Shown in pieces: positions 7,871 to 22,470 of a stretch of 22,470 nucleotides of DNA. Below the pieces are notes generated by a model. It saw nothing but the letters and a program-made list of their open reading frames with translations, did no database searches and was not told the origin of the DNA. The DNA comes from a virus: the IMG/VR virus record IMGVR_UViG_3300051397_000010, positions 1 to 22,470 of that record; one strand, 5' to 3'. How positions within the stretch are numbered: position 1 is the first letter of the stretch; each line of letters opens with the position of its first letter. The position numbers and the translations under genes are program-made.

Positions 7871-7958
7871 CAAAACCCCGATTGAATCCCGGATGATGAC
7901 CCTCGCGGAGCGGGACCGGCTGGGTATGCCGCCCATTGAGTCAACTACCCCGGCCTAA
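7860..7958 (+). pseudogene. 5' part of a small phage gene interrupted by the IscB element
   Basis: The ATG at 7860 follows AAGGTGATGACC and overlaps the RusA stop. It reads MTSDKTPIESRMMTLAERDR then LGMPPIE, after which the frame enters the element's left end and stops at TAA 7956-7958. The native peptide is thus cut after about 26 residues. Its continuation may be the coding region that begins near 9540 beyond the element. It could also be an intact short ORF; too little remains to name a function. Confidence 0.45.
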
Positions 7959-8197
7959 AGGCCGGAGCTGGCAACAGCTCCTGAGTTGACCAGCCTGAGT
8001 CTGTTAAGGACTCCGTTCCTTGGGTGCAGACCTTGGAATGCTTCTCCAGTTCCAAGCACTCTGGTTCTCTGTTAAAAGCAAGCTAGGGGTAGCGCAAGCG
8101 GTGCAGAGAGACGATGCGACCCCAGGGAACATTGGCGAGGAGAGATTTTCGCAAGAAAGCGTCACTAGCCTCTTACGAGGCTCCGAAAGGAGAATCC
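7939..8197 (+). ncRNA. OMEGA RNA (guide RNA scaffold) of the IscB element
   Basis: A 260-base non-coding, strongly structured stretch directly upstream of iscB. The 5' end is a three-way fold: GTCAACT (7940-7946) pairs with AGTTGAC (7984-7990), enclosing CCGGCC-TAAA-GGCCGG (7950-7965) and AGCTG-GCAA-CAGCT (7966-7979). More stem candidates follow up to the iscB ribosome binding site. This position and fold match omegaRNAs of IscB loci. In that system the RNA begins with a guide of about 16 bases copied from DNA just outside the element, here about 7923-7938. Exact 5' and 3' ends are inferred. Confidence 0.82.
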
Positions 8198-8201
8198 TTC
8201 G

Positions 8202-9887
8202 ATGGTCTTTGTGTTGGATAAGCGGAAAAAGCCGTTAATGCCTTGTACTGAAAAACGGGCACGTTTGCTATTAGAACGGGGCAGAGCCCGAGTCCACAAG
8301 ATGGCCCCCTTTACGATTCGATTGATCGACCGCACAGTCGAAGATTCGGTCTTGCAGGATCTTCGTCTCAAACTGGATCCGGGGTCGAAGACCACGGGGG
8401 TTGCTATGACTCGCGATGGTGCGCGGGGCACGGCGGTCGTCTTTTTTGGGGAGATCGTCCACAAGACGACGATTAAGATGCGGTTGGATGCTCGGCGAAC
8501 GGTGCGACGTGGGCGCCGGAACCGGAAGATGCGCTATCGTCCCGCGAGGTTCCTCAATCGGAAGCGAAAACCAGGATGGCTGCCTCCGTCGTTGGAAGCC
8601 CGAGTCAACCAAACCTTGCATGCCGTCGCAAAGCTTCAAAAGCTCGCGCCGCTAACTGCGATCAGTGTGGAACACGTCAAATTCGATACGCAAAAACTTG
8701 AAAATCCCGAGATTTCGGGGGTAGAGTACCAGCAAGGCACCCTTCTGGGCTATGAGGTGCGGGAGTACTTGCTCGAAAAGTGGGGACGGGCATGCGTCTA
8801 TTGTGGAGCCACCGATGTTCCCTTGGAAATTGAGCACATCGTGCCCAAGAGTCGCGGGGGCAGTAATCGGGTGAGCAATCTCGCGCTGGCCTGTCACCCC
8901 TGCAATCAGGCTAAAGGCACGTACACCGCTGAAGAATTCGGCTATCCCGACATCCAAGCGCAGGCCAAAAACCCGCTGAAAGATGCGGCGATGATGAATG
9001 CGACACGCTGGCGTCTGTATGAACAACTCCAGGCCACGGGGCTGCCAGTGGAAGGCGGATCGGGCGGACGGACGAAGAAACAGCGGACGGTGCTGGGATT
9101 GCCCAAAGAACACTACTATGACGCATTGTGTGTCGGCGAAAGCACCCCGCTAACTTTTACCGGCTTCCCGGCTTATGTCCAGGTTTGGTCGGCCAAGGGC
9201 CGTGGCACTCGCCAAATGTGCGGGACTAACCGCTATGGATTTCCGATTCGGTACCGATCTCGCCAGAAGATTCACTTTGGCTTTCAAACCGGCGATCTGG
9301 TGACCGCTGTGATTCCCCGAGGGAAATACGCGGGCACCTGGACTGGACGGGCCACGGTCAAAGCCAGGGGATCCCTGGTGATCGCGACCAACACCGGGAT
9401 GCATCTGGAGACGCACTACCAACACGCCCGCGTACTCCAACGAAGCGACGGCTGGCAAATCACCCAAACACATATCAACGAAAAAAAGGGAACCAGCGGC
9501 TTCCTCCGCGCCCTAAAGGGCGAGGCCCCCGCCGCCAATTTCCGGTGGATGCCGTCCAATCGGAGGGGAGAGGGACATCATGCGACTTGCGCGATCTGGC
9601 TCACGCAGGACCCCGAAAATGGTCTCCAGTGCGGGACGGGGGTCCCCGGACTGAAGGCGGGCGACCAGGTCTCGGTCGGCTGGGACGCCGCGACCGGGCA
9701 CCTCATCTTGCAGGTCCGCCCCGAGGGACCGTACCGAGTGGCCAAAAATCACTATCTGGGCGGTCCGCTCTTGCATCAGTGGTGTCGGGATCGCGGGCTC
9801 GTGCCCGCGGTCCGCTATCCGGTGACGTGGGTGGCAGAGGATCAGGCCCTCTGGGTCTCTGTACAAGATAAGAACGCCACCCCGTAA
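8202..9887 (+). CDS. iscB: IscB RNA-guided nuclease (RuvC-HNH) fused in frame to a phage-derived C-terminal domain
   Basis: 561 residues, ATG at 8202 behind AAAGGAG. IscB, the likely ancestor of Cas9, cuts DNA matched by an omegaRNA guide. Domains: RRXRR/PLMP at 1-45 (KKPLMPC), RuvC-I at 55-68 (LDPGSKTTGVA, Asp59), Arg-rich bridge helix at about 97-125, RuvC-II ISVEHVKFD (Glu157), HNH at 198-240 (CVYC, IEHIVPKSRGGSN, CHPCN, His212), RuvC-III HYYDALCVG (Asp307), and a C-terminal target-adjacent-motif-type domain (about 320-420, GRGTRQMCGTNRYGFPIR). All catalytic residues look intact. IscB proteins usually end near 420-500 residues; here the frame crosses the element's right end without a stop and continues through 112 phage-derived residues (450-561). 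That tail has an in-frame ATG at 9549 but no good ribosome binding site, so it may be a captured gene. Confidence 0.93.
   Translation: MVFVLDKRKKPLMPCTEKRARLLLERGRARVHKMAPFTIRLIDRTVEDSVLQDLRLKLDPGSKTTGVAMTRDGARGTAVVFFGEIVHKTTIKMRLDARRTVRRGRRNRKMRYRPARFLNRKRKPGWLPPSLEARVNQTLHAVAKLQKLAPLTAISVEHVKFDTQKLENPEISGVEYQQGTLLGYEVREYLLEKWGRACVYCGATDVPLEIEHIVPKSRGGSNRVSNLALACHPCNQAKGTYTAEEFGYPDIQAQAKNPLKDAAMMNATRWRLYEQLQATGLPVEGGSGGRTKKQRTVLGLPKEHYYDALCVGESTPLTFTGFPAYVQVWSAKGRGTRQMCGTNRYGFPIRYRSRQKIHFGFQTGDLVTAVIPRGKYAGTWTGRATVKARGSLVIATNTGMHLETHYQHARVLQRSDGWQITQTHINEKKGTSGFLRALKGEAPAANFRWMPSNRRGEGHHATCAIWLTQDPENGLQCGTGVPGLKAGDQVSVGWDAATGHLILQVRPEGPYRVAKNHYLGGPLLHQWCRDRGLVPAVRYPVTWVAEDQALWVSVQDKNATP
9503..9525. 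repeat. Right-end hairpin of the IscB element
   Basis: CGCCC (9509-9513), loop TAAA, GGGCG (9518-9522), extended by CCT/AGG. It mirrors the CTAAAG loop of the left-end hairpin at 7950-7965 and lies in frame inside the fused reading frame. Confidence 0.65.
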
Positions 9888-9900
9888 AGGAGACACCGGC

Positions 9901-11025
9901 ATGTGGATTGAGAGTCACGATGATCTGTGGCATCACCCCAAAACGCGCCGTCTGGCCCGTCATCTAGGAGTCCCTGAACCCTATGCCGTGGGGTTGCTCC
10001 ATTACCTCTGGTGGTGGTGTCACCGCTATGCGTCCACAGGTGATCTCAGTGCCTATACGGCCGAAGACCTGGCGGATGGCCTCGAATGGGAGGGTGACCC
10101 GGACACGCTGCTGACCGCGCTGGTCACGGCGGGATTTCTCGATCAGACCGCGACCGGCTACGCGGTCCATGATTGGTATGAGTACGCAGGTCGGCTCGTG
10201 GAGCAGAAGGAAGCGCGGCGGGCGCAAACCCGCGAGCGTGTGGCCCGTTACCGGTCCCAACAGAACACCCAGCATCCCGTCAAGCCCTCGGGTTCCGGAA
10301 CGGAACCGGATCACGACGGTCCCCGTCAGGACCCGGAACCGACCGACTCGGCATCCGGCCCGACCGATGCGGGACCCCATGCCATGCTGGGGACGGAGGC
10401 ATCCAGTAACGCACCGGTCACACCATGTAACGATGATGTAACACGTTACACGCGCGTTACAGACCCGTTACGTAACGATGATGTAACGCTGTGTAACGCT
10501 CCTAACATAACAATACCTAACATAACAATACCTAACATAACCACACCTAACCCCACAGAACCTAACCCCACAGAACCTAACCACCCATCAGATCCCCAGG
10601 GTGAACGGGCGACACCCCCGGAGATTGCGGATAGGGGGGGTGATCCGAGCCCCGATTCTGCAGGGGAGGGAACGGGAGGGAAGCCCGGCGGGGGGGCACG
10701 CTATCCGCCTGCCTTTGAAGAAGCCTGGCGGGCCTATCCGCGCAAGGTCGAAAAGCGGGCGGCGTATCGCGTCTGGCAGGCCCGTCGTCGGGAGGGATGC
10801 GACCCGGCGGATCTGGCGGCAGCGGCGCGCCATTATGCAGAGGCGGTGGCGGGTCGTGATCCGCGCTACGTGAAGCACGCCGCCACCTTCTGGGGACGGG
10901 ATCGACCCTACGAAGAATACGTGCGCGGGACGGGCCCCCCGGCGGCTCGTGCAGAACCGGCAGGGTGGGCGGGCATCCGCGCATGGCTCGCCGCTACAGA
11001 ACCCGAAGGGAGGGATGAGGGATGA
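9901..11025 (+). CDS. DnaD-like phage replication initiator / replisome organiser
   Basis: 374 residues, ATG at 9901 behind AAAGGAG. Residues 1-110 are a winged-helix replication domain (ESHDDLWHHPKTRRLARHLG, then LHYLWWWCHRYASTGDLSAY, LVTAGFLDQ, VHDWYEYAGRL) as in phage initiators that bind the origin. Residues about 125-250 are low-complexity and encoded by an array of DNA repeats. The C-terminal 80 residues (FEEAWRAYPRKVEKRAAYRVW, then KHAATFWGRDRPYEEYV) resemble the C-terminal part of phage replication proteins that contacts the helicase or loader. The stop overlaps the next gene (ATGA). Like lambda O, the origin appears to lie inside the gene. Confidence 0.85.
   Translation: MWIESHDDLWHHPKTRRLARHLGVPEPYAVGLLHYLWWWCHRYASTGDLSAYTAEDLADGLEWEGDPDTLLTALVTAGFLDQTATGYAVHDWYEYAGRLVEQKEARRAQTRERVARYRSQQNTQHPVKPSGSGTEPDHDGPRQDPEPTDSASGPTDAGPHAMLGTEASSNAPVTPCNDDVTRYTRVTDPLRNDDVTLCNAPNITIPNITIPNITTPNPTEPNPTEPNHPSDPQGERATPPEIADRGGDPSPDSAGEGTGGKPGGGARYPPAFEEAWRAYPRKVEKRAAYRVWQARRREGCDPADLAAAARHYAEAVAGRDPRYVKHAATFWGRDRPYEEYVRGTGPPAARAEPAGWAGIRAWLAATEPEGRDEG
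10406..10590. other. Candidate replication origin: phased GTAAC iterons and AT-rich 15-bp repeats
   Basis: GTAAC boxes start at 10406, 10427, 10438, 10472, 10483 and 10493, and the inverted form GTTAC at 10445, 10456 and 10467. Many are 10 or 11 bp apart, one helical turn. The 16-mer GTAACGATGATGTAAC occurs exactly twice (10427, 10472), and CGTTACGTAACG at 10466-10477 is a perfect palindrome. Next come five tandem 15-bp units beginning CCTAAC (from 10501), the first three AT-rich (CCTAACATAACAATA), plus a partial sixth at 10576. Binding boxes beside an AT-rich tandem repeat are the standard iteron origin plan. Confidence 0.75.
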
Positions 11026-11543
11026 CGCGCACGGAATGCGCAACGCTCCTGGCGTATGTCACGGCGGCGGTCCCGCAGGTAGCCATTCCGGCGCAGACTG
11101 CCGAGGTGTGGTGGGACCTGCTCGGCGATCTGCCCTATGCCGTGGCCACGCAGGCGGTCCGCCAGGTGCTGGCCCGCCAGCGGGGGCATTGGTGGCCCAG
11201 CATTGGCGAAATCCGCGAAACGGCCATCGCCTTGCAACACCCCGACTGGCCGAGCGTGGACCAGGCCTGGGGACAGGTGCGGGGGGCTGTCCACCGCTAC
11301 GGCTACTATCAGCCGGAAGCAGCCTTGGCGGCGCTTGACCCGCTGGTCCGCGAAGTGGTCGAGTCCATCGGATGGACGGAGATCTGTGCGGCCGATCCTG
11401 ACGTGTTGCGCGGCCAGTTCGCTCGGTACTACCAGGCGGCCCGGAGCCGTCACACGGACGCCGCGCTGACGGCGGGTCTGACGGCATCCCGCGCGGTGCC
11501 CCAGCTTGGACCCGACAGCCCAGTGGGGTCCACCCATGGGTAA
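11022..11543 (+). CDS. G39P-like helicase loader / replicative helicase inhibitor family protein
   Basis: 173 residues, ATG at 11022 overlapping the initiator stop by four bases. The N-terminus (MTRTECATLLAYVTAAVPQV, then AEVWWDLLGDLPYAVATQAV, then WWPSIGEIRETA) fits the family of SPP1 G39P, in which a helical domain binds the host-type replicative helicase and brings it to the initiator. Residues about 75-145 (SVDQAWGQVRGAVHRYGYYQ, then REVVESIGWTEICAA and FARYYQAA) are typical of phage loader homologues. Position directly after the initiator agrees. The window contains no helicase, so the host DnaB-type enzyme is probably used. Confidence 0.8.
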   Translation: MTRTECATLLAYVTAAVPQVAIPAQTAEVWWDLLGDLPYAVATQAVRQVLARQRGHWWPSIGEIRETAIALQHPDWPSVDQAWGQVRGAVHRYGYYQPEAALAALDPLVREVVESIGWTEICAADPDVLRGQFARYYQAARSRHTDAALTAGLTASRAVPQLGPDSPVGSTHG

Positions 11544-11573
11544 GGGGATCGGGGGCCATGCGCCGGTGGGGCC

Positions 11574-11927
11574 ATGAAACGCCGGGCGTTGCAGGTGACG
11601 GATCATGCCGCGACTCGCTGGGCGCAGCGCGTCCGCACCGATCCGGGGCGGATCCCGCAGGCTTGGCGGCAGGCGATCTACGTCGGGCATCTCGCGCAGG
11701 TGCGGCGTCTCCGCCATCACTGGCTGCTCGGCTACCGGTGGGCGCAGTGGGTGTTGGTGGTCTCGCATTGGCCCGCATCCGGCGGGCATCGGGAACGGTG
11801 GGTATTGGTGAGTGTGTGGCCTGTCGCGTGGTGGGACCGGGCTGAGGCCCATGGCCCAGATTGGGGCGGGCACTGGACGGCGCGGCGGGACCGGATGACG
11901 ATACAGAGACGCACTAAGGAGGAATAA
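11574..11927 (+). CDS. Small basic Trp-rich protein, unknown
   Basis: 117 residues, ATG at 11574 with a GGTGGGG site. It begins RRALQVTDHAATRWAQRVRT, then contains a basic segment HLAQVRRLRHHWLLGYRW, two hydrophobic strands (WVLVVSHWP and WVLVSVWPVAWW) and a basic tail. A phage-encoded nuclease or nucleic-acid-binding fold is possible, but no family was recognised. It sits between the helicase loader and the lysin. Confidence 0.6.
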   Translation: MKRRALQVTDHAATRWAQRVRTDPGRIPQAWRQAIYVGHLAQVRRLRHHWLLGYRWAQWVLVVSHWPASGGHRERWVLVSVWPVAWWDRAEAHGPDWGGHWTARRDRMTIQRRTKEE

Positions 11928-11930
11928 GGC

Positions 11931-12761
11931 ATGAAATTGACGACACAGACGCTGCCAGCGGGCAGCCTCGTAGTGGATGCATCGAGTCCCGGTCAACGAT
12001 TGACGTGGTACGAGACCCTTAAGCGCTCGGGTTATGCCGCGATCATGTTGGACGCGATGACAACTGGCGTGACGGGCTATGCCGCCTATGCCCTCAATGC
12101 TGGGCTTGGGATCGGCCTCTTCCAGGGCTATTGGCCCGAGGCCTGGACATCAATCCAGTATGCCCGGCCGCGGGCGCAGTATCTGCTGGATGTGGCCCAG
12201 AAAATCGGCCTCCCGCCGGAACTCCCGCTCTGGCTGGATCTAGAGGCAGTGCCCGCGACCGTGACGGCGGAGGCGATGGAAGAATGGGTGACTGCCTGGG
12301 CCGATGAGATCGTGGGAGCGGGCTATCAACCGGGGATTTACGAAGGCGCAGGCAATCAGTTGGGAGCTGCAAACTTCCGTCATCTCGCGGCCGTCTTTCA
12401 ATCTCTGGTGTTCTGGCGATCCCTGTCTATTGTGATAGCCATCGAGGCGGGCTATGTGCTCGTGCAGACACGGGGCGATGTGACGCTGGATGACGTGCTG
12501 GTGGATATCGATAACGTGCGGGCGGACGCCAAGGGTCAGACGCTGCGAGTCGCGGTGTCGACCGCGGACCCAGGGACCGCGCCGGGGCCCCATGCCGGAC
12601 AGACGGGGGTTCAGCAGGCCCAGGATCTGGCGAAGCTGGTAGCCTGTGTCCACGATGATTTGCAGGACCTACGCACGATCATGACGCGGACGCAGGAGGC
12701 AGTAGATCAGGTGCAGGCCGCGGTGACGGCGCTGGTGCATGAGTTATCGGGAGGGTCGTGA
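11931..12761 (+). CDS. Glycoside-hydrolase-like (DUF1906 / Rv2525c type) lysin
   Basis: 276 residues, ATG at 11931 behind AAGGAGGA. Residues 10-200 read as a TIM-barrel GH25-like domain of the DUF1906 group: LVVDASSPGQ at the first strand, GIGLFQGYWPEAW, LPLWLDLEAV with the acidic pair, GYQPGIYEG, and VLVDIDNV at the last strand. The C-terminal 70 residues form a coiled-coil (LAKLVACVHDDLQDLRTIM, then AVDQVQAAVTALVHEL). There is no signal peptide, so export would need a holin; holin-like genes are at 18992-19264 and 13974-14276. Probable role is cell-wall hydrolysis for lysis; a virion-linked wall enzyme is the alternative. Confidence 0.75.
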   Translation: MKLTTQTLPAGSLVVDASSPGQRLTWYETLKRSGYAAIMLDAMTTGVTGYAAYALNAGLGIGLFQGYWPEAWTSIQYARPRAQYLLDVAQKIGLPPELPLWLDLEAVPATVTAEAMEEWVTAWADEIVGAGYQPGIYEGAGNQLGAANFRHLAAVFQSLVFWRSLSIVIAIEAGYVLVQTRGDVTLDDVLVDIDNVRADAKGQTLRVAVSTADPGTAPGPHAGQTGVQQAQDLAKLVACVHDDLQDLRTIMTRTQEAVDQVQAAVTALVHELSGGS

Positions 12762-12913
12762 TGACGCTACGAGCAGGTAGTTTGTTTTCCGGTGGCGGCT
12801 TTATGGATTATGCCGTGGAGTCTGCGGGATTTCAGGTGACGTGGCAGTTCGCAATCGATCCGGATGCCAGGGCGGGGTCGTTGACTGTATACCTTGGGGG
12901 GGAGAGGGCGTGA
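12761..12913 (+). pseudogene. N-terminal remnant of a C5-cytosine DNA methyltransferase
   Basis: 50 codons from the ATG at 12761 (overlapping the lysin stop, GGGAGG upstream). The first 36 residues carry SAM-binding motif I, RAGSLFSGGGFMDYAVESAG, and the motif II region FAIDPDA of Dcm-type enzymes. The catalytic PCQ, ENV and target-recognition parts are absent; the frame ends at TGA after an unrelated segment. A deletion has removed the rest of the gene. The remnant is still in a translatable position. Confidence 0.75.
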
Positions 12914-13176
12914 GATTCCGTGTGATGAGAACCACGTCGAGATGGAACGACCGCGTTAAGCCCTGTCGGCAGGCGGTTCAAGAAGAGTACATGGAGCGGG
13001 ATCGTAAAGGGCGGATCGTGCAAGATCGGGGGCCTAAGACCGCGTGGTTCATTGATTTGGACACGTTGGACGACCTGTTGGCATTTCGGGATACGTATGG
13101 GGAGATTATTGTGAAGAAGGCTTGGGATGATCCCGACACCTACGAATTGGAAATCTATGACGACCACCGGGAATAG
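12910..13176 (+). CDS. Small acidic protein, unknown
   Basis: 88 residues from the GTG at 12910, which overlaps the stop of the methylase remnant (GTGA) and follows GGGGGGAGAGGGC. A GTG start fits better than the in-frame ATG at 12841, which would lie inside the remnant. The second half is acidic and strand/helix-like: TAWFIDLDTLDDLLAFRDTY, then EIIVKKAWDDPDTYELEIYD. No family recognised. It may be an accessory gene. Confidence 0.55.
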   Translation: MRFRVMRTTSRWNDRVKPCRQAVQEEYMERDRKGRIVQDRGPKTAWFIDLDTLDDLLAFRDTYGEIIVKKAWDDPDTYELEIYDDHRE

Positions 13177-13225
13177 GACGATTTTGGTGTCGAACAGTGG
13201 TTCACCGAGGACGGGGGGATACAGG

Positions 13226-13918
13226 ATGAATGAGAAGCTGACACCGCTGACTGAGGTGGATAGCTTACGGCAGGCCATGGAGCAGTTGATGCGGCGTCCC
13301 GTCCCGTGCACCTGGGGCACGCTCGCGGACCTGGCGGCCCAGATAGACCAGGCTGCGTTCCCATCGTCCGACTTGGAGCGGATGCTGCAACGCGATCTGC
13401 GGGTCTACGCCATTCCGACCGCTGAGGCGATCACGGCGTTGGAAAGTTGGCTGCGGTGGCGCGGATTTCGGCGAGTGTTGGAGGTGGGCGCGGGTCGCGG
13501 TTTCTTGGCGGCGTGGCTCCAATCTGCTTGGCCGGAGGGGCAGGTGGTGGCCCAGGATGACGGGAGTTGGAAGATCGCCCCATGGCATCCTGTGGTGACG
13601 ATGCCGTTAGAGGAGGCCCTACACACGGTCGCCCCGGACGGTGTCATCAGCAGTTGGATGCCCTACGGTGTGGACTGGACCCCGGTGTTTCGGGCGACGC
13701 CGTCTGTGCGGGGGTATCTGCTCATTGGGGAAGGACCGGGCGGGGCCGTGGGCACGGATGAGGCGTGGGCCACGGTGGACGGCTGGCAGGAAACGCCGTT
13801 GTGGGACGTGGCCGATCGGATCTGGTCGTCCACCGATTGGGTGTGGCGTGATGGGCAATGTCTGCGCCATGCGGTCGTCACCGCGTGGGAGCGTGAATTC
13901 GCCGACTTGTGGGCGTGA
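13226..13918 (+). CDS. Class I SAM-dependent methyltransferase-like protein
   Basis: 230 residues from the ATG at 13226, with GGGGGGATACAGG upstream. After a helical N-terminal part (about 1-75), residues about 80-100 read RRVLEVGAGRGFLAAWLQSA, a clear motif I of the Rossmann methyltransferase fold, followed by VVAQDDGSW, DGVISSWMPYG and YLLIGEGPGGAVG as later strands. There is no NPPY/DPPY or PCQ motif, so DNA base methylation is not indicated; protein, RNA or small-molecule methylation is open. The C-terminus coincides with a 22-bp-period duplication that probably moved the stop codon. Confidence 0.7.
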   Translation: MNEKLTPLTEVDSLRQAMEQLMRRPVPCTWGTLADLAAQIDQAAFPSSDLERMLQRDLRVYAIPTAEAITALESWLRWRGFRRVLEVGAGRGFLAAWLQSAWPEGQVVAQDDGSWKIAPWHPVVTMPLEEALHTVAPDGVISSWMPYGVDWTPVFRATPSVRGYLLIGEGPGGAVGTDEAWATVDGWQETPLWDVADRIWSSTDWVWRDGQCLRHAVVTAWEREFADLWA

Positions 13919-13928
13919 ATTCGCCGAC
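13891..13928. repeat. 16-bp direct repeat across the methyltransferase stop codon
   Basis: GCGTGAATTCGCCGAC occurs at 13891-13906 and 13913-13928, period 22 bp. The first copy is read as EREFAD near the C-terminus; the second contains the stop TGA. Because 22 is not a multiple of three, the duplication changed the frame at the end of the protein. Confidence 0.85.
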
Positions 13929-13973
13929 ATGCTCGGGTGACAGATTCTGTCTCGACCGTAGGAGGTGTTCCGC

Positions 13974-14276
13974 TTGTCATCATCAGGCAGTATATCGCAA
14001 CCCAAAACAACGTCTCGAAAGTGGAAACTACGGACAGGCCCAAACGTGATGTCCGTCTTGTTACCATTCAATATCGCCTTACTAGTCGTCAGCGGTGCTC
14101 TCGCCATTCTTTCACCGACGAGATCTTTTGGTGAATGCTTGGTGGGTCTAGATGTTGTCGTGTTCTTTGGGGCCTACGGATACTTCATGCTACGCGAGCC
14201 GGATCGCTTGCAAAGCGAAGATTACCGCATCGAGCAGAAACGCTTAGATCTTCAGATCCCTGAAGGGAGGCAATAA
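13974..14276 (+). CDS. Small membrane protein with two helices, holin-like size
   Basis: 100 residues from the TTG at 13974, chosen because AGGAGG lies eight bases upstream. A basic, Ser-rich N-terminus is followed by two hydrophobic segments (VLLPFNIALLVVSGALAILS and LVGLDVVVFFGAYGYFML) and a charged C-terminal tail (REPDRLQSEDYRIEQKRLDL). This topology suits a class II holin or an accessory membrane protein. Codon use is less GC-rich than its neighbours. Confidence 0.6.
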   Translation: MSSSGSISQPKTTSRKWKLRTGPNVMSVLLPFNIALLVVSGALAILSPTRSFGECLVGLDVVVFFGAYGYFMLREPDRLQSEDYRIEQKRLDLQIPEGRQ

Positions 14277-14278
14277 CT

Positions 14279-14527
14279 ATGGGTCACCAAATGAAGGACC
14301 TGCTCTTACGCCAGGGCCCGCAGATTAATGTAGAAGTCCTCGCACAATCAATGGCGCTCAGTGAGGCTTTGCGGCACAATGGGCTTCTGCGTCGAACCTA
14401 CTCCCTGCAACGCCCGGACCGTATCCATCGGGTCCATCCACTCGACGAATCGTCCTCTGTGCGGCGTCATCGTCGATGGGCAGAACGGGAGGCGATGTGC
14501 GGATGGAAGAACCGCGTGACCAATTAA
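14279..14527 (+). CDS. Small protein, unknown
   Basis: 82 residues, ATG at 14279 behind GAAGGGAGGC, two bases after the membrane protein stop. N-terminal half is helical (MKDLLLRQGPQINVEVLAQS, then MALSEALRHNGLLRR); C-terminal half is basic. It overlaps the start of the next gene by 25 bases. No family recognised. Confidence 0.5.
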   Translation: MGHQMKDLLLRQGPQINVEVLAQSMALSEALRHNGLLRRTYSLQRPDRIHRVHPLDESSSVRRHRRWAEREAMCGWKNRVTN

Positions 14528-14781
14528 CCTGGTGGGGAGTACCCCCCGGTCCTGCCCGGCCGGTTCGGTGGAATGCCCGGGCGACGGACCCGAATCCGCT
14601 GGTGGCGATCTATGGTCCCGGTCCGGTGGGGGCCCGGTGTGGTACGTGTGCCCACCTAGTGCGCTGGCATTATGGCCGAACATACCGCAAGTGTCGGATA
14701 CGGGGCCTCACCCACGGCGAGGCGACGGACCATTTCGCCACATGGCCGGCGTGTGGGCGGTATGTTGCGGGGGAAGTGTGA
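14503..14781 (+). CDS. Zinc-binding phage protein with CxxC-C-C pattern, unknown
   Basis: 92 residues from the ATG at 14503 (GGGAGGCGATGTGCGG upstream; an earlier ATG at 14476 is possible). The C-terminal half is CGTCAHLVRWHYGRTYRKC, then a basic loop with THGEATDHFATWPACGRY. Four Cys and nearby His suggest one zinc site. Proteins with the same C-terminal pattern (KC, H, WPACG) occur in phage genomes as small unknowns. It is the last plus-strand gene and meets the minus-strand operon 11 bases further on, with no terminator between. Confidence 0.65.
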   Translation: MEEPRDQLTWWGVPPGPARPVRWNARATDPNPLVAIYGPGPVGARCGTCAHLVRWHYGRTYRKCRIRGLTHGEATDHFATWPACGRYVAGEV

Positions 14782-14792
14782 CGGATCAGACG

Positions 14793-15197
14793 TTAAGTCG
14801 GATTAGACGCGGGAGTGGTCGGCACCTGAAACGACCACACCCCAGCGGGGCCATTCCAGATGAGGACGCCGCGGTCGAGCAGATCATCTCCCGCGAGGCC
14901 GTCGGCCCCTGCGCCGGACGGCAGGGCGAGGCCCACGACCGGCAAGGCGGGCACCGTGCCGCCCGGTCCCAGGTCGAGCGTGACGGTGGCTCGGGGCACC
15001 GTGGCGGGAACGCCGGTCACACCCTGCACCCGCCAATAGCCCTGGGGCGCGATGCCGCAGGCGTGCAGGATAGTGGGGTCGATCACCGTGATGACCGCGC
15101 CCGTGTCGATCCGCAGAGTGACCCGCCGGGACCGCTGGGGCGCGGCGGGATTGCGGACCAGGGCAGGCAGCAGCAGCCGCGTGTGATAGCTAGGCAT
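14793..15197 (-). CDS. Second retropepsin-like protein
   Basis: 134 residues from the ATG at 15197, overlapping the upstream gene by 8 bases. RVTLRIDTGAVITVID carries the catalytic-type DTGA (Asp31), GVTG sits at 59-62, and GLAGDDLLDRG at about 100-110 matches the C-terminal G-(D/N)-x-L-x-D element of aspartic proteases. It shares this layout with the protein at 568-1104 but little else, and it lacks that protein's N-terminal extension and Pro-rich linker. It is the last gene of the minus operon. Either protein could be a maturation protease or a binding-only relative. Confidence 0.6.
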   Translation of the reverse strand: MPSYHTRLLLPALVRNPAAPQRSRRVTLRIDTGAVITVIDPTILHACGIAPQGYWRVQGVTGVPATVPRATVTLDLGPGGTVPALPVVGLALPSGAGADGLAGDDLLDRGVLIWNGPAGVWSFQVPTTPASNPT

Positions 15198-15480
15198 TGT
15201 GCTGCACCCACTCTCGCGCGGCCCATAGCAGATCCGGATCGGTCGTGGCCATGACCTCGCGCATGACCTGTTCGCTGTCACGGCGGCCCGCCACAACTTC
15301 CGCGCGCAGATCACAGTACTGCTGCTCGGCGGGACCAATCGCACACAGGGCCGTCAGGAGCTGGACACACGCCGGACACGGAGGCGCGGGGGTCGTCGTC
15401 TGCCGAGCCTGATAGCGTTCGGCCCAACGCAAAGCCGCCGCTCGAACCGGCGGCGGCAACTGCTCCCAAGCGTCGGCCAT
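15190..15480 (-). CDS. Small protein with CxxC, unknown
   Basis: 96 residues, ATG at 15480 overlapping the upstream stop (TAATG). Mostly helical: WEQLPPPVRAAALRWAERYQ, a CPAC pair with a further Cys (LLTALC), then DLRAEVVAGRRDSEQVMREV and LLWAAREWVQ. No family recognised. Confidence 0.6.
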   Translation of the reverse strand: MADAWEQLPPPVRAAALRWAERYQARQTTTPAPPCPACVQLLTALCAIGPAEQQYCDLRAEVVAGRRDSEQVMREVMATTDPDLLWAAREWVQHNA

Positions 15481-15755
15481 TACCGCACGCCGCGGGTCAT
15501 CCGGGCGGTGTAGTCCTGGAGCCACTTCTGGCCCTTGCCCTGCACGCCTCGGGCATAATTTTGCTGGCCCGCCTGCACGCCAATCTGCCAGGCCTGATCG
15601 GGGCAGCCGGGCACAGCCTGGCCCAGGAATTCACTAATTCCCTTGCAATACGAGCCATTGGCAACGGCTTGCTGCACGCCCGCGACATAATCTTGGGGCA
15701 TGACACTCTGGGCTTTCATATTGTATTTTTCGACTGCGCTGACCGCATTGGCCAT
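15480..15755 (-). CDS. Small repeat-like protein (Y-x-x-GV motif), unknown
   Basis: 91 residues, ATG at 15755 behind AGGAGGG. It shows a loose internal repeat, Y-x-x-GV: YVAGVQQAV, WQIGVQAG, YARGVQGKGQKW. Two Cys (SYCKG, PGCPD) may pair. The regular helical pattern and small size suit a minor structural protein, but function is unknown. Confidence 0.6.
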   Translation of the reverse strand: MANAVSAVEKYNMKAQSVMPQDYVAGVQQAVANGSYCKGISEFLGQAVPGCPDQAWQIGVQAGQQNYARGVQGKGQKWLQDYTARMTRGVR

Positions 15756-15806
15756 CGGACATCCCTCCTAGAGGCATCATACCAGTGACGGGGTCGAATA
15801 TCGGGT

Positions 15807-16223
15807 TCAGGCAAATTCCGTGCGGAATCCCAGACTCTCTAACAGGCTCTGCGCCCCCAGCCATGTATCAATGCCGTAACCGATGAAGTCACAACCGGGG
15901 GTGGTGCCCGCGGTCGGGGCCTGTTGCCAGCAGACCGTGACGAGGCCGCGATCAAACTCGACCGTGCCCAGGTTCTGCCCTGTGGGGCCGAGAATGCGCG
16001 CTGTCTCCCGATGGACGGTCGGTGCGGCCCGGGCGAGAGTATCCGTCACGCCCAGCGCGGCGTCCACCTTGTGCTCATATGTGCTCCCGACTTCCGTCAC
16101 GCAAGCCTGCTGGCCCGGAGTCAGCTGAGTCCAGGGGGCGGCCTTGTCGGTCGCGGGCAGGCACATGGCCCGTCCGTAGTCCACGGCGGGCCCGCTGAGC
16201 GTCGTATTCGGATTGGGGGTCAT
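15807..16223 (-). CDS. Unknown protein of the late operon
   Basis: 138 residues, ATG at 16223 with an AAGGAGGAA site. N-terminus PNPNTTLSGPAVDYGRAMCL, middle helical, then HRETARILGPTGQNLGTVEF and LVTVCWQQAP as beta strands, and a hydrophobic end DTWLGAQSLLESLGF. Three Cys. Its first 49 codons overlap the tail of the upstream gene in another frame. No family recognised. Confidence 0.6.
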   Translation of the reverse strand: MTPNPNTTLSGPAVDYGRAMCLPATDKAAPWTQLTPGQQACVTEVGSTYEHKVDAALGVTDTLARAAPTVHRETARILGPTGQNLGTVEFDRGLVTVCWQQAPTAGTTPGCDFIGYGIDTWLGAQSLLESLGFRTEFA

Positions 16224-16746
16224 CAGGGATTCCTCCTTCCAGGAATGGGGGTTGGGCCTCGTTACGCATATAGGCTAATGGGGCGTCCCCGAGGTGATAG
16301 GTGGTGGGGTGAAAGCGTGTAGCCTGCCAGGACAGCCAGCCATAGGTCCGCAGTTCGCGGCAGGCGTGCCACACATGCTGCCAGGAAGACCCGGTCCACT
16401 GAGCCACGGTGCGGAGCGGGACCTGCACGGTCCCGGCGTCATCACAGCGGAGGGCGAGGGCGGCGCCCACCACTCGGGCTGTCGCGTGCAGCCGGTCATC
16501 CGCCAGCAGCGCTTGGATCCGATGCAGCCGACGCTGGCCCCCCCAGGGGCCGGGGCGATGCACGAGCCGTCCGTCTGCCGTGAGGTCCAGCACGTCCCAG
16601 GTGCCATCCGCTCGCCGCCGGAGGTGCGTCGTGCAGGCGGGGCACCACCAGGTCCGTGGGGTGCCTCGCGTGGTGTCCTGGGTATCCCGCAGGAGTTGCA
16701 TCTGGACCCCGCAATCGGGACACGGCGGATAGGTGGTCGCGATCAT
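16075..16746 (-). CDS. Zinc-ribbon plus winged-helix-like protein
   Basis: 223 residues, ATG at 16746 overlapping the preceding stop by four bases. Residues 9-43 hold CPDC and CPAC, a zinc ribbon. Residues about 80-165 read as a winged helix: LLADDRLHATARVVGAALAL, then VPLRTVAQWTGSSWQHVWHA, then ELRTYGWLSWQATRF. This fits a DNA-binding regulator or replication-type protein; in a late operon it may regulate late genes. The last 49 codons (low-complexity, charged) overlap the next gene, an unusually long overlap. The real end of the functional protein may be near residue 175. Confidence 0.6.
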   Translation of the reverse strand: MIATTYPPCPDCGVQMQLLRDTQDTTRGTPRTWWCPACTTHLRRRADGTWDVLDLTADGRLVHRPGPWGGQRRLHRIQALLADDRLHATARVVGAALALRCDDAGTVQVPLRTVAQWTGSSWQHVWHACRELRTYGWLSWQATRFHPTTYHLGDAPLAYMRNEAQPPFLEGGIPDDPQSEYDAQRARRGLRTGHVPARDRQGRPLDSADSGPAGLRDGSREHI

Positions 16747-17039
16747 GCGTCGTCGAAGGGTGGGAACAGCGGGGTCACGTCGGGTATGGAGCGCTGCCAG
16801 GCATCCGCTGCCCGCTGGTATTCTGCGCCGCTGATGGCGAGGGCCGTGGCCGGGTCGAGCGTGCAGCGCCGGAACAGGGTGCCGACCGCGAGGTGACAGC
16901 GGATGAGCTGACGCCAGGCATCTTCCTCTCCCTGCGTGATCCGGAGCCATTCCACCGTCTGGGCAATCTGATCCACCGCGGCGACCAGGGCCGGGTCCAG
17001 CGGCCCCACCACGGGCCAGGGGGCACGCGGCTCACTCAT
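16743..17039 (-). CDS. Small helical protein, unknown
   Basis: 98 residues, ATG at 17039 overlapping the upstream stop by four bases and its own stop overlapping the next ATG. Predicted helices: PALVAAVDQIAQTVEWLRIT, EDAWRQLIRCHLAVGTLFRR, ALAISGAEYQRAADAWQRS. No motif recognised; probable assembly chaperone or structural component by context only. Confidence 0.6.
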   Translation of the reverse strand: MSEPRAPWPVVGPLDPALVAAVDQIAQTVEWLRITQGEEDAWRQLIRCHLAVGTLFRRCTLDPATALAISGAEYQRAADAWQRSIPDVTPLFPPFDDA

Positions 17040-17404
17040 TGCTGTGCCTTGCCGGGGTCGGGATGCGTCAGGGACTGCATCACCTGCTGCATCACGTCAT
17101 CGGCCAACGCGGGGTCGATGTCCCCCATGCGGAGGGCCTGGCCGAAGGAGGATACGAGGTCCGAGTTCGTGAGGCCCGGGATGGTCTTTGTTATCTGGCT
17201 CATCATGTAGCCCGCGGTCATGAGCCACGCGGAGATCTGCCAGGCTAGCATCGGCGCCGATTCCGTCGCGTCCATTTCCAGCAACGCCGCGGCGAGCACC
17301 TGCAGAGCCGGACGAAATCGGGCATCCAGTCCGAGACTGGTGCCCATCTGCGCCATGGTCACATTCACTAACGCCTCCGGGGTGATGCTGGTCTTCTCAG
17401 TCAT
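17036..17404 (-). CDS. Small helical protein, unknown
   Basis: 122 residues, ATG at 17404 overlapping the upstream stop by four bases. Helical with Met-rich stretches (LVNVTMAQMGTSLGLDARFR, then ALQVLAAALLEMDATESA, WLMTAGYMMSQITKTI, DDVMQQVMQSL). Not hydrophobic enough for a clear membrane span. Tight coupling to the 536-residue gene suggests a partner role. Confidence 0.6.
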   Translation of the reverse strand: MTEKTSITPEALVNVTMAQMGTSLGLDARFRPALQVLAAALLEMDATESAPMLAWQISAWLMTAGYMMSQITKTIPGLTNSDLVSSFGQALRMGDIDPALADDVMQQVMQSLTHPDPGKAQQ

Positions 17405-19011
17405 TGACGTGTCACTCCTTTCTCGGGGTTCGTCAGGGTCCGGGGGCAGGCGACTGCCGCCTGCGCCGCGCCGGTGATATCGCCCTGGACGGCCTGGGTC
17501 AAAATCGCTGCCGCCCAGTGGGCGCGGTGACGCATCAAGGGGTCCATGCCCGCGAGATCATGCTGGACATCCTGCGCCAGTTCCCGTGGCGGGATCACCG
17601 CGCCGGTATCCGTCTCGACCGGGAGGCCCGTGGCGAGCAGCGCCAAGAGCACGGCGGCCTTCGCCTCCCGTTCCTCGGGGATGTCCTCATAGGGCGTGCC
17701 GGGGGCCGGATGGTAGATGTCGCAGGACCGATTGTGCAGGAGAGAATGGGCGACCTCTTCCATGGTGGTATTCACGTCCCCTGCGTCCTCACTCCACAAC
17801 TGCGGACCCAACAGGATGGCATTCTCGCGGGGAATGTAGGCCCCCAGCACCTGGCCGGCATATTCGCCGTCCTCGATCACGGTCGGCAGTTCCTCGATCC
17901 GCACCGGCACCCCCCGTGCCGCCTCCAATTTCAGCAAATTCGTAATGGCCTGCTCCGTGGCGGGCGTTGCCCCGAGGAACGGCCGCACATTCGCGTCCGG
18001 GGTCGTCGGGGAGGTCACGTCGGCCAGACTCTCGACCAATTCGTGGGGAATCCGGGTGTCGACATCCTCAAACAGGCGTCGGGCCAGGACACGCGGCGCG
18101 GCATCGCGGCGGGCGGCGGCCAGCTGCTGGTGCAAGGTCTGTGCCTGATCGGCCCAGGTTCGCAGTTGCGCGGGGGTCAGCTGGGCGGCCTGCGTGGCGC
18201 TCACCTGCACGGCCAGCGTATCGGCGGCGGCAGCGGCCTGCACCAGCGTCGTGTTGTCGACAATCCCGCCACTGACCTGTTGGCGGAGCCGCCGCAGGGC
18301 CTTGGACGTTTTGGCGTCCCAGGCGGTCACGTCCAGCCGTTCGGCGCTGGCGAGGGCCTGTTCCGCCGCCAGCCGTCGTCGTTCGACCTCGGGGTGGGTC
18401 ACCGGATCGCCTGAACGGGTAAACCGGGTGGCCTCCTTGAGTCCGGCCGCGGCCTGTGCGAGCAGGACCGCACCGGTGGTCGTATCACCGCTCCACCCGG
18501 CGGCCCAGAGTTCGGCCACCTGGGGCCGGAAGTGATCGATGACCGCCTGTTGATCGGCGGGCCACGTCTTATCGGCGGGCCAGTCATGCTCCAGGAGAAT
18601 GCCCGGTTCTTGCTGGGCGAGCGTCCACCACCGCGTGCAGGTGGCATCGCAGGTTCCCGCCCGCTCGGCGGCGGTGGCGGCCTGTTGCAAGGACCCGGCC
18701 CAGGCGGCGAGGTGTGCCGATGCGCAGTTGAAGCAATCGGTATCATCCGTGGGATGCCCTTCCTCCGATAAGTAGCGGCTCGGAGCCGAAGCCGTGGTGC
18801 GCCGCCGGAGCCACGCGATTTGCGCGTCCAGCACGTCATGTTCCGGGCGTGTGCGAGCGGTGCGGGTGGCGGTCCGCCGCTGCCAAAAATCCGCCCCCCG
18901 ACCACTCATTGCAAACACGGTGCCGACGGCAGCGAAGATCGGACTCTCGGGGGCCAAGGCCCGCACGAGACCCGCCGCGTGATCCCCGACCTCAGTCCAC
19001 GTGGTCGGCAT
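17401..19011 (-). CDS. Large late protein with Cys-rich N-terminal part and IrrE/ImmA-like zincin domain (degenerate motif)
   Basis: 536 residues from the ATG at 19011, inside the last 20 bases of the holin-like gene. Residues about 10-30 are hydrophobic. Near residue 90-130, TDCFNCASAHLAAWAGSLQQ and CDATCTRWW give two Cys pairs, a pattern found in large phage proteins. The middle is long helical. Residues about 350-480 resemble an ImmA/IrrE peptidase domain: MEEVAHSLLHN, then EEREAKAAVLLALLATG, where the family has HExxH and a distal Glu. The first His of HExxH is Glu here, so metal binding would be weakened. Possible virion-associated or host-modifying protein; the peptidase call is moderate. 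Confidence 0.55.
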   Translation of the reverse strand: MPTTWTEVGDHAAGLVRALAPESPIFAAVGTVFAMSGRGADFWQRRTATRTARTRPEHDVLDAQIAWLRRRTTASAPSRYLSEEGHPTDDTDCFNCASAHLAAWAGSLQQAATAAERAGTCDATCTRWWTLAQQEPGILLEHDWPADKTWPADQQAVIDHFRPQVAELWAAGWSGDTTTGAVLLAQAAAGLKEATRFTRSGDPVTHPEVERRRLAAEQALASAERLDVTAWDAKTSKALRRLRQQVSGGIVDNTTLVQAAAAADTLAVQVSATQAAQLTPAQLRTWADQAQTLHQQLAAARRDAAPRVLARRLFEDVDTRIPHELVESLADVTSPTTPDANVRPFLGATPATEQAITNLLKLEAARGVPVRIEELPTVIEDGEYAGQVLGAYIPRENAILLGPQLWSEDAGDVNTTMEEVAHSLLHNRSCDIYHPAPGTPYEDIPEEREAKAAVLLALLATGLPVETDTGAVIPPRELAQDVQHDLAGMDPLMRHRAHWAAAILTQAVQGDITGAAQAAVACPRTLTNPEKGVTRQ

Positions 19012-19264
19012 GGGTCGTCTCCGGCGCGGGGGCAGATCCCATCGCCAGGCGTGCTGCGTTATGCGCATGGACCATGGCGGTGCCACTGATTCCGAGAATG
19101 AGTGCAATGATAATGCCCGCGGCGTCTTCCAAGACGGACACCTGGTGTGCCGACAAGGGGACACCGAAGGCCACGACAATCGCGAGCACCGCGCTCACGA
19201 CGCTCAACCAGAAGCTCTTGCTGTGCAAGTTCGCCGCGCGGGCGGCTTCCTGTGCTGCGGTCAT
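18992..19264 (-). CDS. Holin-like protein with two membrane helices
   Basis: 90 residues, ATG at 19264 overlapping the previous stop by four bases. Hydrophobic segments LSVVSAVLAIVVAFGVPL and DAAGIIIALILGISGTAMVH are joined by a short loop; the C-terminus is short and charged. Size and topology match small phage holins that release the lysin. It lies next to an XhlA-like gene, also consistent with a lysis or membrane module. Confidence 0.65.
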   Translation of the reverse strand: MTAAQEAARAANLHSKSFWLSVVSAVLAIVVAFGVPLSAHQVSVLEDAAGIIIALILGISGTAMVHAHNAARLAMGSAPAPETTHADHVD

Positions 19265-20016
19265 GATGATCCTCCTTCTGTCACCGGACCTGTCGTATCC
19301 GGTGATCCCTCATAGATATTGATACTGCTACGGTTGGCGCCCGCCGCATGAATCTTTTCCTCGCCCCACACCCAGATGCCAAAGCCCACCAGTCCGAGGC
19401 CGCCGCCCAGGATGAGCGCTTTATCGAGGAAACTGAGATTGTCCCACCAACTGGCGACACTGCCCGGTGGCGGAGGCGGGGGTTTGGGGACCACGGTCGG
19501 GACGAGTCCGTGAAACGTAATCTGTTTCCCAACGGTGCCTAACACGGCATCGGCAATCGCGAGGGCGACTAGGATACCGAGAATGACGAGGATCACGATC
19601 AAGATGACCGACTGGCGCTTTATCCACCGCACTGTGACAGTACGGGTATCCGCATCGTAGACGGCCAGCTTGCCGGGACCCCCATCGCTGCGGGGCCAGA
19701 GTTCGATACGCTGGCCCTTCGCGGGGCCTTCCGCGTACCGGAGATGCCCCGCCGCCCATTCGGTATTGAGCCGGTCGGCCACGACTTGCCCGGTGACCCC
19801 GACGACGGGCAGGGTGGGCATCCCACTCATGCTCAGTTCCAGCAGTCCCCCTTCGGGGGTGGCATCGACGGCCTTCGTGAAGGCCGGATTCAGCAGATCC
19901 TCGCCGCGGGTGAGGCTCGTCGTCAGGACCTTGTAGACCTCGGTCCAGCTGATCGGAAAGAGCGGACCCGCCTGCGCTGTCGAGGCGCTGGCAACGACCT
20001 GCAGTTGCGCGGCCAT
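19261..20016 (-). CDS. Membrane protein with soluble N-terminal domain and Pro-rich linker
   Basis: 251 residues, ATG at 20016 overlapping the previous stop (TGATG). Residues 1-130 are soluble and beta-rich (LLELSMSGMPTLPVVGVTGQ, IELWPRSDGG, LAVYDADTRTVTVRW). A first span, SVILIVILVILGILVALAIA, is followed by an outer or inner loop with a PKPPPPPPG linker, then a second span ALILGGGLGLVGFGIWVWG. No family recognised. It sits between two further membrane proteins. Confidence 0.65.
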   Translation of the reverse strand: MAAQLQVVASASTAQAGPLFPISWTEVYKVLTTSLTRGEDLLNPAFTKAVDATPEGGLLELSMSGMPTLPVVGVTGQVVADRLNTEWAAGHLRYAEGPAKGQRIELWPRSDGGPGKLAVYDADTRTVTVRWIKRQSVILIVILVILGILVALAIADAVLGTVGKQITFHGLVPTVVPKPPPPPPGSVASWWDNLSFLDKALILGGGLGLVGFGIWVWGEEKIHAAGANRSSINIYEGSPDTTGPVTEGGSS

Positions 20017-20252
20017 CAGTGGGTCACCGTCCAGACAATGGACCAGAGCAGCGAACCCGCGGCAATGGTGCCCATGACCCAGACCGAGATCATGCGCTGG
20101 GCGCGTCGATCCAGGGTATCCTGTTCGTCCTGTCGGGCCTCCAGGGCCGTGAGGCGCTGGGCCAGTTGGTCGAACTGCTGACGCACATAGCGCACGTCGG
20201 CCTGCAGGCTATCGAGATAGGGTTTCAGCCAGTGTTGGGTGTCCTCCGCCAT
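20016..20252 (-). CDS. XhlA-like coiled-coil membrane protein
   Basis: 78 residues, ATG at 20252 behind GGAGGGGA. A charged coiled coil (LKPYLDSLQADVRYVRQQFD, then QLAQRLTALEARQDEQDTLD) precedes one C-terminal span (MISVWVMGTIAAGSLLWSIV). This is the layout of haemolysin XhlA, which works with holin and lysin in Bacillus prophages. A structural spacer is the alternative. Confidence 0.65.
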   Translation of the reverse strand: MAEDTQHWLKPYLDSLQADVRYVRQQFDQLAQRLTALEARQDEQDTLDRRAQRMISVWVMGTIAAGSLLWSIVWTVTH

Positions 20253-20264
20253 GCCGTCCCCTCC

Positions 20265-20282
20265 TGTGCTAAGCATAGCACA
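20265..20282. terminator. Hairpin between beta-helix and XhlA-like genes
   Basis: TGTGCTA and TAGCACA form a perfect 7-bp stem with a 4-base loop in a 41-base gap on the minus transcript. There is no T-run; partial termination or mRNA processing is possible. The next gene's GGAGGGG follows at once. Confidence 0.4.
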
Positions 20283-20293
20283 TGCCGCGGCCG

Positions 20294-21772: not shown

Positions 21773-21860
21773 GGGGTGCATCCCTCCGATCCGCCAATGC
21801 GGTTATGCGTGGCGCGTCGCCAGATCAAGAACGATACCGATTCTGAGGGTCCTGACTGAA

Positions 21861-22376
21861 TTATAACTCCCGCCGGGTAGGGGTGAGGGTGGGTGCCATC
21901 CCGATGGGGATACCCGCCGCCTCGTGCAGTTCCAACGCCTGGTCCAGCGCGAGCTGCAAGACTTGGTGGTCGACCGCCTGCTCGACTTCGCGCGTGATGT
22001 GATCCGTCGCGGCGCGTTGCCAATAATGCGGGTGGGCCGCATCGTCCCGTTCGAGTTTGTAATGGCCGCGGTCATAGGCCCGATACGGTTGATAGTGATG
22101 GAGTTTGCCGTCGTGGAGCAAAAAGTAGACCACCTTGCCGCGGGCGAAGGCCTCTTGCGTGGCGCGGCCAATGGCGTCGTGGTCGTGAACCCACCGGTCG
22201 CGGGTGCCCAGCGGGGGGTCGCCGGTGCCGTCCCACATGACGGCGGTCCACCGCGGGCGTTCTGCGGCCTCCAGCGCTTCCCGGTCGAGGGAGTGGAGGG
22301 CTTGTCGCACGAGCGAGGGCGCGAGGACCAGGCCCTGGCGGGCCGCGAAGAACAGGATATCGGTAGATCGAATCAT
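21861..22376 (-). CDS. Unknown protein of the late operon
   Basis: 171 residues, ATG at 22376 behind AGAGGAGGC. N-terminus hydrophobic then helical (STDILFFAARQGLVLAPSLV), middle with RWVHDHDAIGRATQEAF and KVVYFLLHDGKLHHYQPYRA, then a helical His/Glu-rich part (TREVEQAVDHQVLQLALDQA). His and acidic residues are plentiful, but no metal motif is clear. An 88-base gap separates it from the beta-helix gene. Confidence 0.6.
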   Translation of the reverse strand: MIRSTDILFFAARQGLVLAPSLVRQALHSLDREALEAAERPRWTAVMWDGTGDPPLGTRDRWVHDHDAIGRATQEAFARGKVVYFLLHDGKLHHYQPYRAYDRGHYKLERDDAAHPHYWQRAATDHITREVEQAVDHQVLQLALDQALELHEAAGIPIGMAPTLTPTRREL

Positions 22377-22387
22377 GCGTGCCTCCT

Positions 22388-22470
22388 CTAGAATAGATAA
22401 GCCGTGACGGCGGCTAGGGCACCGCTGCTGCTGGCCCCATCAATCGCATACATGAGGGTGTTGCTGCTAT
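22388..22470 (-). CDS. C-terminal end of a gene cut by the window edge
   Basis: Only the last 26 codons are present, ending AVTAYLF and TAG at 22388-22390. The tail (LMYAIDGASSSGALAAV) is hydrophobic and Ala/Ser-rich, suggesting a membrane or structural protein. Its stop lies eleven bases before the next start, in the same operon. Too little is seen for a name. Confidence 0.55.
   Translation of the reverse strand, partial: SSNTLMYAIDGASSSGALAAVTAYLF

Follow-up and report, generated by a model that had tools for sequence, protein, structure and literature searches.

Does a cluster of short repeats inside the coding sequence of a phage gene mark the place where replication begins? The question is raised by a 22.5-kb virus record (hereafter the window, the whole stretch of 22,470 nucleotides that was analyzed), in which a sequence-only reading had taken an array of GTAAC/GTTAC pentamers and the adjoining tandem units, both lying within one open reading frame, for an intragenic origin. 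In its sequence, the segment at 10406-10582 agrees with what is expected of such an origin, with repeated boxes in the middle of the gene, an easily melted tract beside them and a loader gene next door. It is probably a replication origin carried in the linker of the phage's own initiator gene, read by a bZIP-like helix and opened in the tract, with binding, unwinding and the start of replication being inferred.

The gene product matches PHROG 9474 ('replication initiation protein') over the full length (1.5e-44, residues 2-351) and no Pfam family above threshold; Phage_rep_org_N is matched by the initiators of a few relatives. Foldseek comparison of the winged-helix-type domain with the PDB yielded weak winged-helix matches at best, none of them significant, and the same search with the C-terminal domain gave nothing significant, no solved relative of it having been found. 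This C-terminal domain is common to initiators with unrelated N-terminal domains, and mosaicism among phage initiators is on record (PMC10684548). Pfam and PHROG profile scans detected no DnaA domain in the initiator, no AAA+ domain was seen, and no Pfam match indicating homology to lambda O was obtained at E values up to 0.1. The gene directly 3' belongs to the SPP1-type helicase loader family (Inhibitor_G39P), while the 5' side harbors RecE/RecT-like and RusA-like genes, a D12-class adenine methyltransferase and an IscB-type gene with its HEARO RNA. The neighborhood is an early replication/recombination module. The stretch at 7940-9887, comprising a HEARO (omega) RNA (RF02033, 125.7 bits) and then a protein with RRXRR and HNH parts (PF14239, 3.2e-68), is a gene of the IscB type for an RNA-guided nuclease; it belongs to the early region of the phage and lies immediately 5' of the initiator. 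Its protein is long (561 aa), and the last ~130 residues may derive from another protein joined in frame. Elsewhere in the window, at 1302-1376 and 13891-13940, there are short tandem repeats of 21 and 22 bp. A megablast search with positions 8000-22470 against phages returned no match, and GC skew shows no inversion at the 10406-10582 site, which counts against an origin there.

Table 1. Coordinates of the features discussed, numbered from the first base of the window
Feature	Position	Strand	Description
Window	1-22,470		22.5-kb virus record, IMG/VR IMGVR_UViG_3300051397_000010
Replication initiator gene	9901..11025	+	374 aa; winged-helix N-domain, basic helix, linker encoding the putative origin, helical C-domain
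Winged-helix-type domain	9901..10176	+	codons 1-92; AlphaFold2 model, mean pLDDT 88, order H-H-H-H-E-E-H
Long helix with bZIP-like basic motif	10174..10257	+	codons 92-119; helix in the AlphaFold2 model; proposed box reader
Tenth box, GTAAC	10247..10251	-	inside codons of the putative recognition helix (CGT TAC = R-Y)
Box array	10406..10497	both	nine GTAAC/GTTAC, 11-bp phased
Palindrome CGTTACGTAACG	10466..10477		two abutting TTAC half-sites; core as in the bZIP site TTACGTAA
Spacer GCTCC	10498..10502	+	between the last box and the tract's first TA; one of 58 aligned junctions
Period-5 A/C-biased tract (TAACA TAACA ATACC ...)	10503..10582	+	proposed unwinding/single-strand recognition element; also read as NITIP/NPTEP
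C-terminal helical domain	10708..10929	+	about residues 270-343; model pLDDT 94
G39P-like helicase loader gene	11022..11543	+	Pfam PF11417 Inhibitor_G39P, 7.9e-7, above its cut-off

All nine pentamers that had been claimed for about 92 bases are present, starting at 10406, 10427 and 10438 on the forward strand, at 10445, 10456 and 10467 on the reverse strand, and at 10472, 10483 and 10493 on the forward strand again. The two words occur 17 times in the whole window against 15.9 expected, so that nine in 92 bp represent local clustering rather than a common word; in codon-preserving shuffles of the gene, 10401-10500 contained 3.0 boxes on average and 8 at most, and none of 20,000 reached nine. 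The reported 11-bp spacings were recovered (10483 to 10493 being 10), as was the perfect 12-bp palindrome, whose core recurs in the YRE-A site TTACGTAA (PMC6545440). Boxes of one orientation are in phase with one another at 11.0 bp (resultant 0.96 and 1.0), but the two orientations are out of register with each other; the proposal that bound proteins would sit on one face of the helix is for that reason limited to each orientation and does not extend across the two. The further proposal that both arrays are in-frame multiples stands for the 15-bp units and fails for the boxes, 11 not being a multiple of 3 and the codon phases running 1,1,0,1,0,2,1,0,1. Boxes that fall in all three codon phases and on both strands are therefore not a coding repeat.

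About 110 non-redundant relatives were assembled from N-domain searches, which led to phage records, a Clostridia contig and IMG/VR loci; 68 genes formed the first set, and 43 held-out genes were fetched later and filtered against it. The Clostridia contig (L003) has GTAAC boxes at the equivalent place, including AACGATGATGTCACGCTGTGTAACGC as compared with AACGATGATGTAACGCTGTGTAACGC in the window. Most relatives contain, at the same place in the gene, 11-bp-spaced boxes, a short and mostly GC-rich spacer and a strand-biased period-5 tract with A/C or A/G bias; neither part is clear in three distant relatives (L012, L088 and L092). Counted from the start of the initiator gene, the arrays are about 300-600 nt downstream, and the box type switches repeatedly among GTAAC, GTCAC, GGACGTCC and CACGTG. 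For every lag, the identity within a gene was set against that in codon-shuffled versions of it. Across the 68 genes the box segment showed an excess at lags 11 (z 7.9-9.4), 22 (5.6) and 33 (3.2) and none at 10.5-type distances such as 21, and the next segment showed an excess at lags 5 and 10 (z 8.0 and 8.2) and also at 15 and 20; in the N-domain segment the excesses were small and fell mostly on multiples of 3 (z up to 4.9), with neither period standing out. The 43 held-out genes gave z values of 7.1 and 6.8 at lags 11 and 22 and of 6.9 and 6.0 at lags 5 and 10. Gene by gene, single exact words cluster beyond the codon null in some of the relatives only, because the boxes are often degenerate, and more weight rests on the lag test across the family. 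Clustering, phasing and conservation of the two-part layout are thus established at the level of sequence. The comparison that had been suggested as a check came out in favor of an intragenic origin, since relatives keep the box spacing while codons, peptide and even box sequence change; the refuting outcome, peptide kept and boxes lost, is not what is seen. Replication from the site itself has not been shown.

The initiator linkers of five relatives (L026, L083, L239, L260 and L324) contain an HNH-like stretch (CxYCG..VNWKDR..G.TYD..DP.G) between the basic helix and the tract, placing the site of this insertion inside the putative origin. Initiators that share the C-domain and have unrelated N-domains (L113-L192), some of them apparently from enterobacterial prophages, carry iterons followed by a short-unit tract before the C-domain. 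Because the tract period in these, judged by eye, may be 5, 6, 12 or 15, the 5-nt unit is not universal.

The tract of the window is strongly biased (A38 C35 T12 G3 at 10498-10585) and consists of 15-bp tandem units in frame at 10501-10585, which are more aptly regarded as pentamers. It had been described as AT-rich and ideal for unwinding. The low stability was borne out, 10491-10550 being the second least stable 60-bp stretch of the window, but AT-richness is not the point: GC-rich relatives have GC-rich tracts (TACCGGACCAACCGG) with period and 5-bp skeleton unchanged, which rules it out as a conserved property and implies that the periodic skeleton, not AT content, is kept. When 58 hand-picked junctions were aligned on the first TA of the tract, the spacer consisted mostly of G and C, A occupied +6, +11, +16, +21 and +26 in 64-76% of the rows with C (or G) next, and T was almost absent from the third and fourth pentamer positions. 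Only the later positions count as independent evidence, since positions 0-1 were chosen by hand and those up to about +9 were used in picking.

The in-frame 15-bp units, which give NITIP and NPTEP, might suggest that the repeats are a mere low-complexity protein linker of the PN-x-T kind. Such an explanation is scarcely tenable: besides boxes in every codon phase and both orientations, it would have to account for identity at lags 5, 10 and 11 above codon-preserving shuffles and for one DNA skeleton read in two different frames. Of the junctions, 35 have a tract starting in codon frame 2, 21 in frame 1 and two in frame 0, and therefore the peptides differ; in some relatives purine pentamers on the same DNA skeleton give quite different ones. 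Inspection of the sequence shows ATACC or similar at every third pentamer, the one in codon phase 0, in which TAA or TAG would be read as a stop, and it is this avoidance of stop codons that produces the 15-bp period and the peptide NITIP. NITIP/NPTEP is a coding shadow of the 5-bp DNA repeat, and pentapeptide repeats in these initiators are explained as its by-product.

The link between array and protein comes from the relatives. Box types were assigned from the DNA before the protein was examined (a few by reading linkers) and compared with the N-terminal protein alignment, the helix being registered by its motif. Three helix positions covary with box type (p0, z 18.8; p4, 16.8; p7, 7.7), p1 and p5 are moderate (4.8 and 4.4), and p2, p6 and p9-p15 remain at about 3 or less. 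R is nearly invariant at p3 and p8, which is partly imposed because both were used in the registration motif. The codons of p0 and p4 are free of box overlap in most rows; p7, whose codon is frequently overlapped by the first box, is weaker and partly confounded evidence. Residue combinations follow the boxes closely: N-K-S accompanies GTCAC (10 of 12), D-K accompanies GGACGTCC (21 of 22), N-M-A/S accompanies CACGTG (8 of 8), and N or T with V/A/T/Q plus an aromatic residue or His accompanies GTAAC (9 of 9). The window, with T110-RER-V114-AR-Y117-R118 (codons 10228-10254) within the predicted helix 92-119, has T and not N at p0. Genes of the GTCAC and CACGTG classes (e.g., L018 and L041) often have the first box inside the codons of its own reader helix, as CGG TCA CGC (R-S-R) or GCA CGT GCA (A-R-A).

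The rule was fixed on the first set and made 29 predictions in the held-out set, leaving 14 other genes without one; by mechanical counting 24 of the 29 were right, as compared with a mean of 10.9 and a maximum of 22 in 200,000 label shuffles. The five misses comprise one HNH insertion, two degenerate GGAC boxes recognized by eye, and two Gln/aromatic cases (NAERQRRFR and NRERQRRYR) that have GTAAC boxes and the Gln plus aromatic combination found in Yap. On a poorly resolved winged-helix tree the four box labels require at least 18 changes, with no clustering at all of the eight CACGTG rows (8 changes). Where the winged helices of a pair were at least 60% identical, p0/p4 were shared in 72 of the 76 pairs with the same box and in none of the 129 with different boxes. 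Natural swaps of helix and box together were found in L056/L074 and L089/L090, whose winged helices are 89% and 88% identical. The winged helix was also considered as the specificity reader and is unsupported: its columns have a mean z of 0.9 and a maximum of 5.1 against box type, and winged helices 88-89% identical accompany different boxes. The covariation itself is established in sequence; that the basic helix binds the boxes is strongly supported by it, in the absence of binding data.

Covariation might also arise within an intragenic origin merely because helix and boxes are exchanged jointly as one DNA cassette. The helix codons do lie close to the boxes, and swapping of N- and C-domains is common (PMC10684548), but against this the signal is concentrated at p0, p4 and p7, on one helix face, with p2, p6 and p9-p15 at background, and we consider it unlikely. 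An operator, through which the initiator would control transcription of the replication operon from inside its own gene while replication starts elsewhere, is compatible with covariation, which demonstrates cognate recognition and not replication, and with the frequent role of winged-helix proteins as regulators. It is quite unlikely, given arrays placed about 300-600 nt into the gene and not at a promoter, an adjoining period-5 tract at a fixed junction that has no operator role, and the same layout at known origins, those of lambda O and SPP1 gene 38 (PMC6022878, PMC6316719). Very unlikely is a site for partition, packaging or recombination (centromere-like iterons, pac, or the homing target of the neighboring IscB), although iteron arrays are known in such sites and the IscB-type gene with its RNA lies immediately upstream. 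No match to parA/parB or terminase was found among the scanned neighboring genes, the examined relatives keep the element inside the initiator gene, and covariation with the initiator's own helix points to that protein.

An intragenic origin read by the basic helix invites comparison with eukaryotic bZIP proteins. The GCN4 half-site is TGAC. Ser at p7 of the phage helix goes with TGAC and an aromatic residue at p7 with TTAC, as is likewise the case for GCN4 and Yap (PMC6545440). In Yap bZIPs residue 239 is Gln and residue 242 Phe or Tyr, and the sites are TTAC(GTAA) (PMC6545440). GCN4 contacts bases through five residues, Asn235, Ala238, Ala239, Ser242 and Arg243 (PMC6545440); the covarying p0, p4 and p7 correspond to Asn235, Ala239 and Ser242, and the phage motif [N/D/T]-x7-R has the spacing of the bZIP basic region N-x7-R. 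The phage initiator differs in joining the helix to a winged helix and in lacking a leucine zipper, the basic motif being followed by a Pro/Gly/Gln-rich linker without heptad leucines. It also lacks detectable homology: none of 69 family members matched a bZIP Pfam family, and a basic-helix profile found no match in the PDB. The likeness is probably convergent. No bacteriophage origin read by a bZIP basic region was found in the open-access papers searched, and a prior description is not excluded.

A mechanism can be proposed in three steps. The initiator would bind the GTAAC boxes via the basic helix that follows the winged-helix domain, reading TTAC half-sites as a bZIP basic region does; the 11-bp spacing suggests one molecule per helical turn. 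The bound array would then strain or capture the adjoining pentamer tract, with opening presumed to begin at the fixed TA, which lies about 10 nt from where the last box starts, as inferred from position, stability and the lambda precedent. The 5-nt unit may next be held on one strand by the initiator or a partner; such single-strand recognition, which recalls DnaA-trios and the DnaD element, is speculative, its chances being about even. Finally, the replicative helicase would be brought in by the product of the adjacent loader gene, a role inferred from its family.

Whether this amounts to a widespread initiator family, in which a bZIP-like helix follows eukaryotic residue-to-base rules, specificity for the origin changes time and again through two or three residues that swap with the boxes, and opening relies on a single-strand motif of 5-nt units at a fixed distance as the phage counterpart of DnaA-trios, is a broader proposition that we regard as having somewhat better than an even prospect. 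Intragenic origins are known from a few model phages; here a single element can be recognized in a large, mostly uncultured phage family. Its box, spacer and tract can be delimited by sequence alone, and the code that relates helix residues to boxes is testable. If true, origins and their specificity become predictable for many phages, bZIP-like DNA reading gains an unusual prokaryotic case, and single-strand recognition by a non-AAA+ initiator becomes directly testable.

The parallel drawn with the lambda origin, of different sequence, was a fair one. Ori-lambda lies midway in gene O, with iterons and then an AT-rich region (PMC6022878), and as here the unwinding tract is on the same side of the iterons and the loader gene is directly downstream (PMC6022878). 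The lambda deletions ori95 and ori96 leave O active (PMC6022878). In lambda, however, four inverted-repeat iterons of 18 bp stand about 20-24 bp apart beside an AT-rich tract, and the O protein is unrelated; the window instead combines 5-8-bp boxes spaced by 11 bp with a pentamer tract and a proposed reader in the form of a basic helix. The array, of 5-bp boxes at 11-bp spacing, does not fit the 18-bp inverted-repeat iterons of lambda ori proper. The oriL of Bacillus phage SPP1, in gene 38 beside the gp39 loader, resembles the window in having direct repeats and a DUE inside the initiator gene together with a G39P-type loader (PMC6316719); neither a bZIP-like code nor a pentamer tract is described in the accessible part of that source. 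The rep gene of lactococcal phage TP901-1 has the same order, TTTCCAGATGTGG repeats and then a 15-bp-period tract after GCAGC|TA, with an N-domain and box other than those of the window. The B. subtilis oriC (DnaA boxes, DnaA-trios and DnaD element) also sets double-strand boxes beside a repeated motif of one strand (PMC10201434), but its unit is 3 nt and its initiator DnaA, whereas the tract here has a 5-nt unit and the initiator no DnaA domain; the DnaA-trio or BUS type, defined by a trinucleotide motif and DnaA, does not fit. An origin within an initiator gene is thus of a kind already known (PMC6022878, PMC6316719); what appears to be new is a defined family in which the boxes are one turn apart, a pentamer tract adjoins them at a fixed junction and recognition follows a bZIP-like code.
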